Shown: piece after piece, positions 8,660-18,124 of the stretch
Numbering within the stretch: position 1 is the first letter of the stretch
Layout of the letters: every line of letters starts with the position of its first letter
Virus record (IMG/VR): IMGVR_UViG_3300011126_000077
Location: 1-20,686 of that record
Origin: a virus
Reading direction: 5' to 3' (one strand)
Length of the DNA: 20,686 nucleotides
Program-made: the position numbers and the translations under genes
Notes under the pieces: generated by a model
Database searches by the model: none
What the model saw: only the letters and a program-made list of their open reading frames with translations
Told to the model about the DNA's origin: nothing

Positions 8660-8699
8660 AACTGGTCAGACCACACCCACCATCTGATAGTGCTAACAT
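8660..8699 (+). promoter_or_regulatory. Accessory-cassette promoter copy 3
   Basis: AACTGGTCAGACCACAC begins 5 nt after the ssb stop; the dyad is at 8663-8673. TAACAT (8694-8699) lies 17 bp after CCACAC and is preceded by TGC, an extended -10. Predicted start near 8706, about 19 nt before the ATG at 8725. An inverted repeat CTGATAG (8684-8690) / CTATCAG (8703-8709) spans the -10. Confidence 0.7.
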
Positions 8700-9368: not shown

Positions 9369-9408
9369 AACTGGTCGTACCACATAGCAGCGATTTAACT
9401 GATACCAT
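9369..9408 (+). promoter_or_regulatory. Accessory-cassette promoter copy 6 (diverged)
   Basis: AACTGGTCGTACCACAT differs from the other copies at two bases in the centre, breaking the dyad slightly. TACCAT (9403-9408) lies at the same 17-bp spacing and is preceded by TGA (extended -10). Unlike copies 1, 2, 3 and 5, no well-formed gene starts about 20 nt downstream; the first supported frame is at 9541. It would transcribe the structured region at 9697-9966. Confidence 0.55.
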
Positions 9409-9488
9409 TAGATTGTCAGGTGAGAGCTAAAAGGCAGATAAAGGCACTGCTCAATGTAAACGCTAATTAAACAGGTGTTTTTAAATTA

Positions 9489-9518
9489 TTGACTGTAAGT
9501 AAGTAATTGATGTATTTT
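9489..9518 (+). promoter_or_regulatory. Possible sigma-70-type promoter upstream of the 46-aa gene
   Basis: TTGACT (9489-9494) with TGTATT (9511-9516, 16 bp) or TATTTT (9513-9518, 18 bp). It lies in an AT-rich gap (9409-9540) in which no convincing gene is seen, only a 16-codon GTG frame at 9420 without a ribosome binding site. Confidence 0.35.
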
Positions 9519-9540
9519 TGGCTTAAGGGGGTGGCGAACA

Positions 9541-9681
9541 ATGTTTATATCGCTTATCGTCCTAATTTACTTCCTTTACGGCTTGAAGGAAGTTATAGAG
9601 AAAATGTCGCATGGGACACGACCATGCATCGTGCTACATTCGCAAAAAGGCGAAATTAGCGCAGAGGTTTGGACTCTGTAG
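9541..9681 (+). CDS. 46-aa membrane microprotein
   Basis: Reads MFISLIVLIYFLYGLKEVIE, then KMSHGTRPCIVLHSQKGEIS and AEVWTL. Residues 2-14 are hydrophobic and would insert in the membrane; the rest is soluble with a CIVL beta segment. GGGGGTGG lies about 7 nt upstream. No family recognised; stands alone before the structured non-coding region. Confidence 0.5.
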   Translation: MFISLIVLIYFLYGLKEVIEKMSHGTRPCIVLHSQKGEISAEVWTL

Positions 9682-9696
9682 GTGCTGAATCAAGCC

Positions 9697-9966
9697 ATGA
9701 AAAGTGCCTCTCACATGAGAGGACATATTTTTAAGGTGTTTGAACAGTCGCCCGATGAGAACGAAGTGTTGTGCACGACACGGATACTGTATAGCGGTTA
9801 TGGCTGCGCCGCTTGAGACACCTTAACAATGTGATAATTGCAACGCTCTACATGGTTGCTCACATTTGCGGTAAAACCAACCGAAAGCGAGGTGGTCCGT
9901 TCTTGACTCCAGAATAGATGGGGCAGCAATCAGACCATAGATTGCAAGCTAAGCAACCCTGAGAAG
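9697..9966 (+). ncRNA. Candidate structured non-coding RNA
   Basis: Dense with paired segments and more GC-rich than its surroundings. Hairpin 9707-9722 (CCTCTC/GAGAGG). Helix A 9731-9739 with 9818-9826 (nine pairs) closes a three-way arrangement: helix B 9744-9748/9786-9790 with hairpin C 9766-9771/9776-9781 inside, and hairpin D 9793-9797/9809-9813. Next, helix E 9828-9834/9860-9866 stacked on F 9840-9844/9855-9859; then G 9876-9882/9891-9896 and H 9926-9931/9940-9945. A 39-codon frame (9697-9816) overlaps but lacks a good ribosome binding site. Strand is chosen from the flanking promoter and genes; no known RNA family is recognised. The stretch 9967-10002 holds only the ribosome binding site of the next gene. 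Confidence 0.5.
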
Positions 9967-10002
9967 CGTAGCGAGGCATTCACTTTAACTAACGAGGTAT
10001 TT

Positions 10003-10092
10003 ATGACAGACCCAGTAACTTTGCCAGACGAGCCAATTGCAGAAACTCAAGGTGGCGCATCTAAGCCACCTAAAGAGCAAGACGAGAAATAA
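10003..10092 (+). CDS. 29-aa acidic, proline-rich peptide
   Basis: Reads MTDPVTLPDEPIAETQGGAS and ends KPPKEQDEK. GAGG lies 5 nt upstream, and the stop is 2 nt before the next gene. Likely disordered. The good ribosome binding site and the tight spacing suggest a translated leader or small partner of the membrane protein that follows. Confidence 0.55.
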   Translation: MTDPVTLPDEPIAETQGGASKPPKEQDEK

Positions 10093-10094
10093 AG

Positions 10095-10589
10095 ATGCTT
10101 GAGTTTAGTGCTAGCCAAAACGTTAGCCTAAGCATGATTTTTATGGCTGCCTATCTGGCGGCCTTTTTATTTTCATCAGGCAAGGATATTGTATATGCGT
10201 TTGGCGCTAGCATCGCGTGTCAATGCTATGGGTTGTCACCACTGTATAACTACACTCTAGAAGTGAACCCATCCCTAGTGTTCTTAATTTATGCATCGAT
10301 CTACTTTACAGCAATCAGATTCCTATCAACCTATAAAGTTATAGCGGCTTGTTTTATAATGGCATTATTCGAGGGGTTAATGTACAAGGCTTATCTAAAT
10401 GAACTCGGCAACAAAGGGATTGAGGATGGCTTGTACTACAATTACGAATACATTGTTACACTGCTTCATCTTGCTATTCTGTTTTCGCTGGTTCGCTGGA
10501 ATGTCGTACGATCCGCTAATCGGTTTTTTCGTGACAATATACTGCTCCCTTTCCTGCATCAACGCCTTCTTTTGCCTTTTAGAGGCTAG
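10095..10589 (+). CDS. Multi-pass membrane protein (164 aa)
   Basis: At least four hydrophobic helices: about residues 12-28 (MIFMAAYLAAFLFSS), 34-46, 60-75 (LVFLIYASIYFTAIRFL), 79-95 (VIAACFIMALFEGLMY) and 119-133 (YIVTLLHLAILFSLV), with a basic C-terminus. No family recognised. With a 48-aa membrane frame nested in its end and a coiled-coil membrane protein next, it may be part of a lysis or membrane-remodelling cassette, though the endolysin is encoded elsewhere (1-148). Confidence 0.65.
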   Translation: MLEFSASQNVSLSMIFMAAYLAAFLFSSGKDIVYAFGASIACQCYGLSPLYNYTLEVNPSLVFLIYASIYFTAIRFLSTYKVIAACFIMALFEGLMYKAYLNELGNKGIEDGLYYNYEYIVTLLHLAILFSLVRWNVVRSANRFFRDNILLPFLHQRLLLPFRG

Positions 10590-11491: not shown

Positions 11492-11931
11492 AGAATTGCC
11501 GTAAATGCGGGGCGATCCCCGAGCTGGTAGACGGCCGAACAAAATGGTTTGCTAGGTGCAAATGCCCAGCAGGTGACAATGTAGTTTATGGTCAATCAGT
11601 TTCGTTTCTAGACCATATTAACATTGACGACGACGATCTAACAGACAGAGTGATGAGTATTGTTTTTGATTCGGTGCCGTGGGATGAACTGAGGCAGTCA
11701 GCTATTGACGCTTGGAACACCCGCGCACCACAAAGCGAGTGGATTAGTGTTGATGATAGATTGCCGGAATACAACAAGCCTTTCCTTGTGATTGATACTT
11801 TTGGCTACATGTTTGTGTGCCAATATAGCTCGATAGGATGGCTCCCATCGATAGACGGGGACCACCCGAACTTTTGCAGCGACACCATCACCCACTGGCA
11901 ACCACTACCAGAGCCACCAAAAGGAGAGTGA
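11479..11931 (+). CDS. Lar-like zinc domain fused to DUF551 (150 aa)
   Basis: ATG at 11479 (GGAG 8 nt upstream) opens GKLKNCRKCGAIPELVDGRT, with RCKC further on and AIDAWNTRAPQ near residue 80: the pattern of Lar-family restriction-alleviation proteins (cysteine pairs then WN-x-R). The second half, EWISVDDRLPEYNKPFLVID to THWQPLPEPPK, is DUF551, common in phages and of unknown role. Lar of the Rac prophage modulates type I restriction; whether this protein does is unknown. The first cysteine pair is CRKC, and the second is close-set. Confidence 0.82.
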   Translation: MGKLKNCRKCGAIPELVDGRTKWFARCKCPAGDNVVYGQSVSFLDHINIDDDDLTDRVMSIVFDSVPWDELRQSAIDAWNTRAPQSEWISVDDRLPEYNKPFLVIDTFGYMFVCQYSSIGWLPSIDGDHPNFCSDTITHWQPLPEPPKGE

Positions 11932-11932
11932 T

Positions 11933-12247
11933 ATGAGCGATGTAAAGATGAGTGATGATAACATTTTATATTTATTAGAAACGCTATCACAGTTCGAGCC
12001 TGAAGATATTGAGTGTGATGATTTTGAGGTAGCGGTTAACGATGACCAGTTTGCACAAATGAGCATTGTTAGAACAGCGGAGCTGGCCAAAGAGCAAATA
12101 GCCAAGCTGCAAGCGGATAATGAATTGTTGCGCGAGGCTTTAATTGATGCTGACAAGTGGTTGAACATTGATAAGGATTACGACCAGTCACCGTTATGCA
12201 ATAAGGTTTACGAAGCACTAGCGGCAACCAAAAAGGATAAGGAATAA
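11933..12247 (+). CDS. Acidic coiled-coil phage protein (104 aa)
   Basis: Begins MSDVKMSDDNILYLLETLSQ; acidic segment EPEDIECDDFEVAVNDDQF, then coiled coil AELAKEQIAKLQADNELLRE followed by ALIDADKWLNI, a helix common in phage accessory proteins. The ribosome binding site GGAGAG overlaps the upstream stop. Possibly a DNA-mimic-like or scaffolding small protein judging from its acidity, but this is not supported by any family match. Confidence 0.7.
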   Translation: MSDVKMSDDNILYLLETLSQFEPEDIECDDFEVAVNDDQFAQMSIVRTAELAKEQIAKLQADNELLREALIDADKWLNIDKDYDQSPLCNKVYEALAATKKDKE

Positions 12248-17047: not shown

Positions 17048-18124
17048 ATGCCTATATCAGAGAAATCAATCACACAGCAAGCGAGCCACCAGCTTTATGT
17101 TATTAGGCTGTCAGCAATGACGGCTAACAAGCCTAAAGAGTGGTTCGACTCTTACGAGAAGCTGGCATTAGAAATCACATCAAAGCTGAAGCCTGGCAGT
17201 GTGAAAACTTACACTGAGGTGTTAAAAGATTTACTTGAAACATCTGGATACTTTAGCGAGTACCAGAAAGAGGTTAACGCCGATATTTCTGAATTTGCCG
17301 CTTATGAGGCTGCTTATCAGGCTGCGCTGCTTGAGGATTTGTTTGTCAATCCTATTCCTGTAGTAGTTCCTAAGAAATCTGATGTAATAGACAGGATTAA
17401 AAACACGCCAATGATATTGGGCCAGCGCGACAAGGACGTTATAACCTGGAAGCAGATGATTGCCTCAATAGATGAGTCTGCGAGAAAAGGAGTTGAATCA
17501 GCAGTTACCAGGGCATACTTTAGTGGTGATATATCAGGACTGCGTAAACTTGTGTCTCAAGCTGTCGAGACGGCACGTAATGGCGTTAGAGCTACAGTTA
17601 AGACCATGTATCAGCAGGCGGCATCGCAAAGCAAGCAAGCGCTATACAGGGCCAATGATGATTTGATTATCGGCTATCAAATTGTGGCAACGCTTGACTC
17701 AAGAACGACGCAAATATGTAGACTTAGAGATCAGAAAAAATACTATTACAAAGACAACTTTAATCCGATGCTGCCTTTTCACTATGGCGAGCGCTCTACT
17801 GATGTGCCGGTGTTAAGCTCTGAGTATGAGATTGATAGAAGCGGCGATACTCGACCAGCAAGGGGCGCTGATGGTGGTCAAACTGTAAGAGACTCAACAT
17901 CTCAAATGGCGTTCATTAAGTCTCAACCTAAGTTTTGGCAAGATGACGCACTAGGAAAGGTGCGAGCTGACCTGTTAAGAAACTCTGGTTTAACTCCTGA
18001 ACAATTCAAGAAAGCGATGTCTGACCAATTCGACCAGCCGCTAACGCTTAAGCAGATGGCTGCTAAGGATAAGGCTATACGTGATTACATGGCTAAAAAG
18101 CCTGAGTATGAGCGTTATCTATAA
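17048..18124 (+). CDS. Head morphogenesis protein, SPP1 gp7 / Mu gpF-like (358 aa)
   Basis: Minor head protein that binds the portal and is thought to help early DNA injection or assembly. The opening EKSITQQASHQLYVIRLSA is usual for this family, and ATLDSRTTQICRLRDQKKYY (about residues 214-233) followed by PMLPFHYGERS (240-250) is the signature MuF core; the usual terminal HxxCRS is here HYGERS, so the cysteine is absent. Start is kept at 17048 because the family N-terminus begins there, although no ribosome binding site is seen: the promoter repeat occupies that place. Confidence 0.88.
   Translation: MPISEKSITQQASHQLYVIRLSAMTANKPKEWFDSYEKLALEITSKLKPGSVKTYTEVLKDLLETSGYFSEYQKEVNADISEFAAYEAAYQAALLEDLFVNPIPVVVPKKSDVIDRIKNTPMILGQRDKDVITWKQMIASIDESARKGVESAVTRAYFSGDISGLRKLVSQAVETARNGVRATVKTMYQQAASQSKQALYRANDDLIIGYQIVATLDSRTTQICRLRDQKKYYYKDNFNPMLPFHYGERSTDVPVLSSEYEIDRSGDTRPARGADGGQTVRDSTSQMAFIKSQPKFWQDDALGKVRADLLRNSGLTPEQFKKAMSDQFDQPLTLKQMAAKDKAIRDYMAKKPEYERYL

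Follow-up and report, generated by a model that had tools for sequence, protein, structure and literature searches.

The window analysed here, 20,686 nucleotides of virus DNA (IMG/VR record IMGVR_UViG_3300011126_000077), is a fragment of the genome of a marine tailed phage, whose terminase shares about 65% identity with the terminases of Escherichia phage Sa179lw and related Salmonella phages. Between its SSB/accessory genes and a small gene at position 10003 lies a locus with no convincing coding signal, at which a first-pass annotation had proposed a novel structured RNA (9697-9966). The RNA is found to span approximately 9707-9980 on the plus strand, where all window features given below also lie unless stated otherwise. 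Its true 3' end is at about 9980 rather than 9966, and its start is possibly upstream, near 9385-9520. No tRNA or tmRNA domain was detected in the window by ARAGORN, which also gave no support to an anticodon-arm-like CAGAG/CTCTG at about 9660 considered as a tRNA remnant.

The GC content of the region is indeed raised compared with its immediate flanks (0.47-0.48 versus 0.37-0.43) but it is no higher than in other parts of the window. Folding against shuffled controls gave moderate evidence when taken alone, with an energy of -82.1 kcal/mol versus a shuffled mean of -68.8 (z -2.85, 2 of 200 shuffles equally good). In a scan of the whole window, values of z at or below -2.8 fall in the lowest 5% of 410 windows of 200 nt on both strands, several coding stretches being lower still, and fold energy alone is weak evidence because many windows are equally low. 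Low-scoring stretches elsewhere include 11801-12000 on the minus strand (-4.8), 17101-17300 (-4.4) and 10001-10200 (-4.2) on the plus strand. In the minimum-energy fold of the window sequence by itself, some of the 3' half takes other partners than in the conserved structure. The reality of the RNA is settled by the existence of homologues in which its helices are conserved.

Upstream of the RNA, a block at 9369-9495 is 88-89% identical to its counterparts in two relatives, L082 and L083. It comprises the palindromic AACTGGTCGTACCACA (9369-9384), a hairpin CTGATA/TGTCAG (9399-9419), a hairpin P0 (9459-9463/9475-9479) and the sequence GGTGTTTTTAAATTATTGAC, which recurs in the 5' part of other members, and it represents either a promoter or a 5' module of the RNA. 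The best promoter candidate of the window, a weak sigma-70-like TTGACT-18-TATTTT at 9489-9518, is a match to the consensus only. Promoter-like sequences are also present upstream in other members, namely TTGACA-17-TATTAT (L108), TTGACA-17-TAAATT (L102) and TTGACA-17-CATTAT (L123), as well as TTGACG-17-TACATT in L106 and L111, in which the boxes are kept and the spacers have diverged. Read from the sequence, hairpin P1 (CCUCUC/GAGAGG, 9707-9722) has equivalents in CACUCA[CGUAA]UGAGUG of L082 and L083 and CACUGC[CGUAA]GCAGUG of L106.

The palindromic AACTGGTCNGACCACA, which we take to resemble a FadR/PdhR-type GntR operator, has 7 matches in the window versus 1.35 expected. Copies are located at 1030, 2617 and 17026 on the minus strand and at 8660, 9369 and 10956 on the plus strand, those at 8660 and 9369 being followed by a CTGATA...TRTCAG hairpin. 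Between the block and the RNA, a 46-aa frame, MFISLIVLIYFLYGLKEVIEKMSHGTRPCIVLHSQKGEISAEVWTL, occupies 9541-9681 behind an SD-like site at 9521 that is the second strongest of the window; the equivalent place in L082 and L083 is taken by a membrane-like frame of about 84 aa that is unrelated to it.

A family of homologous RNAs in Shewanella and Vibrio phages

The RNA almost certainly belongs to a real structured RNA family in phages. With near-identical contigs counted once, 14 members are known (the window and about 13 other phage contigs), which are not all independent since they include the clades window/L082/L083, L106/L111, L108/L112 and L123/L150/L184/L186/L197. The family occurs in phages of Shewanella and Vibrio, and the isolated phages carrying the RNA are Shewanella phages 1/4, 1/40, 3/49 and ZP9 and Vibrio phages 1.076.O and 1.210.O.

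L082 and L083 were fetched through the downstream gene at 10095-10589, and sequence searches with their copies reached Vibrio phage 1.076.O (E 6e-10) and its relative 1.210.O, Shewanella phage ZP9 (L107, E 1e-4) and, as weak matches confirmed by reading, Shewanella phages 1/4, 1/40 and 3/49. L102 was added by a motif scan of viral contigs. A 5' block, AAAT-N-TTGAC-N-GGAAAGAC, is common to L082, L083, L102 and L123. When it was used alone to scan viral contigs, mostly chance matches were obtained, plus L150, L158/L186, L184 and L197/L205. In all of these the unrelated 3' domain follows on the same strand, at a distance of 100-400 nt. In searches with covariance models, for whose inputs loops and an optional hairpin were trimmed by hand, L150 was recovered at E 0.004 in 0.9 Mb though absent from both models. 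A model built without the window and L082 found L150, L102 and, with 22.0 bits and E 7e-4 in 70 kb, segment 9891-9981 of the window.

Among 80 loci related by their terminase, no sequence recognisably in common with the RNA region was seen, and model R1, run on a subset of these loci, gave nothing convincing (L023, E 0.0057, looks like chance). An exact-motif scan of 84,980 bacterial genomes returned only 10 chance matches, apparently in coding sequence, and model R1 gave one marginal match in 369 genomes from the class to which a Paraburkholderia belongs; there are no host copies of the RNA in the genomes searched.

Conserved helices and covariation

The helices proposed at 9731-9739/9818-9826, 9828-9834/9860-9866 and 9840-9844/9855-9859 are present at those coordinates, the latter two exactly, while the first forms part of a longer, 11-pair helix P2 (9731-9741/9816-9826). 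The first two of the three are retained by the homologues. In the homologue comparison, 98% of P2 cells are paired and 4 pairs show double changes, all contributed by L184 or L197. P2 of L184 reads UAAAGGUG/CACCUUUA, and that of L197 is an almost wholly different helix, UUAUGGGCUUU/AGAGUCCAUCA. P2 encloses an insert, in the window the three-way junction of 9742-9815, whose sequence and length differ between lineages. In L083, for instance, the strands of the nine-pair helix are kept as TATTTTTAAGGTGTTTG and AGACACCTTGACAATGTGATA around a replaced, shorter insert. The proposed three-way junction is this variable insert, and the 3' domain matters more than it does. The 39-codon frame 9697-9816 is not preserved in relatives, since L082 and L083 have different sequence throughout the interval that P2 encloses. 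Of note, the P2 insert of L197 (minus strand) measures about 140 nt and includes UAGGGUUCGAAUCCCUA, which resembles a tRNA T-arm; ARAGORN calls no tRNA in it.

P3 (9828-9834/9860-9866) is continued by the inner helix 9840-9844/9855-9859. The 5' strand of P3, AAUGUGAUA, hardly changes, and variation in the 3' strand takes the form of G-U wobble pairs, so that the helix has no double changes of its own; its outermost pair is lost in four members. Taken together, P2 and P3 have 96.7% of their cells paired versus 32-56% when the partners are slid.

The 3' domain (9891-9981, limits from the covariance models) is the best-supported part of the RNA. Within these limits lies an optional hairpin P5 (CUCCA/UGGGG, 9907-9923), common to the window and Shewanella phage ZP9 and absent from L083 and most other members. 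P6 (GCAAUC/GAUUGC, 9926-9945) is replaced by GCAAGG/CCUUGC in L083, GUAACG/CGUUGC in L106, GCUA/UAGC in L123 and GCAUG/CAUGC in L108. P8 (9948-9977), with outer pairs GCU/GGC (9948-9950/9975-9977) and inner pairs GC/GC (9953-9954/9971-9972), closes on P7, a 5-bp hairpin ACCCU/AGCGU (9956-9969) with one C-C mismatch in the window. The GNRA tetraloop of P7 is GAGA in the window and GUGA or GCGA in relatives; an extended loop takes its place in L108, L111, L150 and one L102 copy.

Alignment A5 (12 members) is composed of natural sequences, although these were fitted to the structure. In it, the 3' domain has 32 cells with double-sided, compensatory changes versus 13.5 in shuffles (0 of 500), and 88.2% of cells are paired versus 19-34% with the partners slid. 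The structure was drawn from the same sequences on which it was tested, and related lineages are not independent samples for these counts; a hand-trimmed version of the 3'-domain alignment comprises 9 members. Between the window and L082, substitutions are too few for a pairing test (5 of 13 in helices, p 0.58). The covariation among homologues that the first-pass annotation had suggested looking for is thus found, and the compensatory changes across phage lineages support its reading of the locus as a structured RNA, one for which Rfam 15 holds no family.

Hairpin P4 and its complementarity to the 16S rRNA tail

A conserved GGUGR core recurs between P3 and P6. In the window it belongs to P4 (9876-9893), a hairpin of 3 bp (ACC/GGU) whose 3' arm bears an SD-like sequence. 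P4 is longer elsewhere, with arms that differ yet pair: CAUCUUC/GGAGGUG in L106, UACUUC/GGGGUG in L184 and CAUUC/GGAUG in L186. The segment GAGGUGGUCC (9889-9898) is complementary, with one G-U pair, to the 16S rRNA 3' tail GGAUCACCUCCUUA, a sequence which we take to be as in E. coli and its relatives.

This complementarity is significant. For 12 of 13 RNAs, duplex predictions on the whole molecule put the best site for the 16S tail at the conserved GGUGR, with energies of -12 to -23.5 kcal/mol. The window RNA reaches -21.3, and none of 60 shuffles is as strong. Site 9889-9898 is also the strongest of the whole 20.7 kb on both strands (-21.0 kcal/mol versus -16.2 for the next, at 9521). Among nine homologous loci scanned, the site ranks first in seven, narrowly so in L123 (-12.4 versus -12.2), and second in L184 and L108. 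When the flanks were shuffled with the core fixed, they were found to add complementarity beyond the core in 9 of 11 members (p<0.02), the exceptions being L150, which is weak (-9.7, p 0.42), and L123, which is marginal (p 0.06).

The SD-like sequence sits in a hairpin arm and is probably partly paired in the free RNA. Since the site is the 3' arm of P4, it may stay closed until the RNA meets the ribosome. No consistent reading frame follows the GGUGR site. A TTG lies about 10 nt downstream in the window, L082 and L107, where translation of a tiny leader is therefore possible, the frames having 4, 17 and 11 codons, respectively.

Genomic context, related RNAs and possible roles

Across the family, the RNA usually adjoins tRNA genes. 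A tRNA-Trp in L106 and a tRNA-Gly in L150 start 6-7 nt after it. Further downstream are found a tRNA-Pro in L111, a tRNA-Gly in L107, a tRNA-Gly and a tRNA-Trp in L158/L186, and, accompanied by a pseudo-tRNA, a tRNA-Gly and a tRNA-Arg in L108/L112. In Shewanella phages 1/4 and 1/40, the 122-nt pseudo-tRNA (L108:2187-2308, L112:1769-1890) lies directly after the RNA and has acceptor- and T-arm-like ends around a long central insert. Instead of a tRNA, an intrinsic terminator is present in L123 and L197. L102 has one behind its second 3'-domain copy, and in the clade of the window the RNA is followed by a small gene. The class of downstream gene is therefore not constant among the members, comprising tRNAs, terminators or unrelated genes, and this variable 3' neighbour makes the RNA look like a stand-alone, tRNA-linked phage ncRNA.

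Searches of Rfam 15 with the window RNA and its homologues returned no family for the RNA, even at E 10 on short inputs, and no group I or II intron, known self-cleaving ribozyme or other Rfam intron or ribozyme family. Its description was not found in the literature searched, which covered few subscription journals, so that an earlier description is possible. The family appears not to have been filed before and is of the GOLLD/ROOL kind by context, not by sequence model. GOLLD is likewise phage-encoded and often beside tRNAs, with a conserved 3' region and a less conserved 5' region; its linker sometimes contains a tRNA or tRNA-like sequence, and ribosomes were recovered in GOLLD pull-downs (PMC12286853). 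ROOL, an RNA of phages and prophages, lies close to tRNA islands and has a variable linker (PMC12286853). The Rfam covariance models of both fail to match the window RNA or its homologues, and both measure some 600-800 nt, whereas the core of the window RNA is about 275 nt; from promoter to 3' end, the RNA measures 183-478 nt in L123/L150/L184/L186/L197.

OLE RNA binds bS21 through a mimic of the SD:anti-SD duplex, which links it to the 30S platform (PMC12054373). It is likewise a structured RNA with its SD-like strand paired in a hairpin. The present RNA has no match to the OLE model of Rfam, and it differs in being phage-borne, with a far more extended SD-like strand and a poorer anti-SD mimic. 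The Vibrio phage ICP1 makes an 800-nt, long orf-less ncRNA that is its most abundant transcript (PMC7567579). When considered as a relative, it showed no significant 3' domain with model R1 and filters off.

The favoured explanation is that of a phage-encoded, independently structured and modular ncRNA, made of a 5' hairpin module, P2 clamping a replaceable insert, P3, P4 with its extended SD-like sequence and a conserved 3' domain comprising P6, P8 and the GNRA-capped P7. It would most likely be a transcript of its own, often produced together with phage tRNAs, and would act in trans. The P4 arm would open and pair over 10-14 nt with the 16S rRNA 3' tail, the anti-SD, and as the sequence suggests, the GGUGR site would dock the RNA on the 30S subunit. 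There it could act as a competitor of mRNA initiation, or it could keep the phage RNA or its tRNAs at the ribosome. We infer that the RNA is expressed and processed, binds ribosomes and affects translation, and we give the whole statement, ribosome docking included, a probability of about 0.4. The GOLLD and OLE precedents make docking plausible by analogy and are not tests of it.

The main rivals are a GOLLD-like architectural RNA, bS21 mimicry and a cis-acting leader. An architectural RNA would fold or oligomerise so as to surround the variable insert or the phage tRNAs with a particle or scaffold, and the SD-like sequence would belong to its fold instead of contacting the ribosome. The conserved 3' region, the variable clamped insert, the tRNA neighbourhood and the T-arm-like sequence within P2 of L197 parallel GOLLD, and the pairing of differing P4 arms in three lineages agrees with such a role, which we regard as unlikely but worth serious consideration. 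The RNA is shorter than GOLLD and ROOL and matches neither in Rfam, and P4 pairing alone does not account for flanks that are complementary to the 16S tail. A cis-acting leader or processing element of a tRNA or late operon, serving for example in antitermination or in protection of tRNA precursor 5' ends, would suit the many members that precede tRNAs or lie between the genes for minor-head and scaffold/capsid proteins. It seems improbable given that L123 and L197 have their own intrinsic terminator and no tRNA, that the downstream gene differs between lineages and that small accessory genes follow in the window.

Binding of bS21 or the 30S platform by a P4 that mimics the SD:anti-SD duplex, as P6 of OLE does (PMC12054373), would dispense with rRNA pairing. 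Read from the sequence, P4 does pair the SD-like arm with a pyrimidine-rich arm, but the latter (AUCUUC, ACUUC, CAUUC) imitates CCUCCU poorly and the window's P4 has only 3 bp, which leaves this mimicry rather doubtful. That GGUGR is the Shine-Dalgarno sequence of short leader peptides is quite improbable: the suitably spaced TTG of the window, L082 and L107 opens only the very short frames mentioned above, and no suitably spaced start codon exists in L106, L111, L102, L184, L186 or L123. An explanation by chance folding, by a DNA-level element or by an unannotated coding region could draw on a fold z that is unexceptional for the window and on the 46-aa frame with a strong SD just upstream; the compensatory changes in P2 and P6-P8 and the lack of frame 9697-9816 in relatives make this the least credible account.

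If ribosome docking is true, a phage would target the ribosome with an RNA instead of a protein. A phage RNA family capturing the host small ribosomal subunit by extended pairing with the 16S 3' tail can be put forward only tentatively. Phages have repeatedly been found to carry large structured RNAs beside tRNA genes, and the role of these RNAs is a standing question. The present family is smaller than GOLLD and ROOL, occurs in isolated phages and comes with a conserved, specific and easily mutated pairing prediction; should it bind ribosomes, it would offer a simple testable system for the role of such RNAs in infection.

Parts of the RNA are also encountered in other settings. In Shewanella phage 1/41 (L247:1890-2150), the 5' module is found without the 3' domain, flanked by the capsid gene and the genes after it. 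It is accompanied by a promoter-like sequence and a terminator and may from its sequence be a second, shorter ncRNA built from the same parts. Streptococcus phage Javan11 (L109:1480-1600) and some 50 related phages have 26 nt identical to the L102 5' block (ATCTTGACTGGTAGGAAAGACTACTG), beside GGAGGTGGTC at a gene end and before a terminator; this identity may reflect chance or a common element. Finally, int-alpA RNA (RF02996), a separate element without a match to the window RNA, lies inside or beside the RNA in L102 and L107. Followed by an endonuclease-like gene, it is inserted in the RNA at L102:8635-9455 (minus strand) and L107:2391-3082, and L102 has one 3'-domain copy on either side of this cassette. 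The gene matches HNH_3 in L107 and shows a weak, below-cutoff AP2 match in L102, which suggests that int-alpA RNA travels with homing endonucleases.
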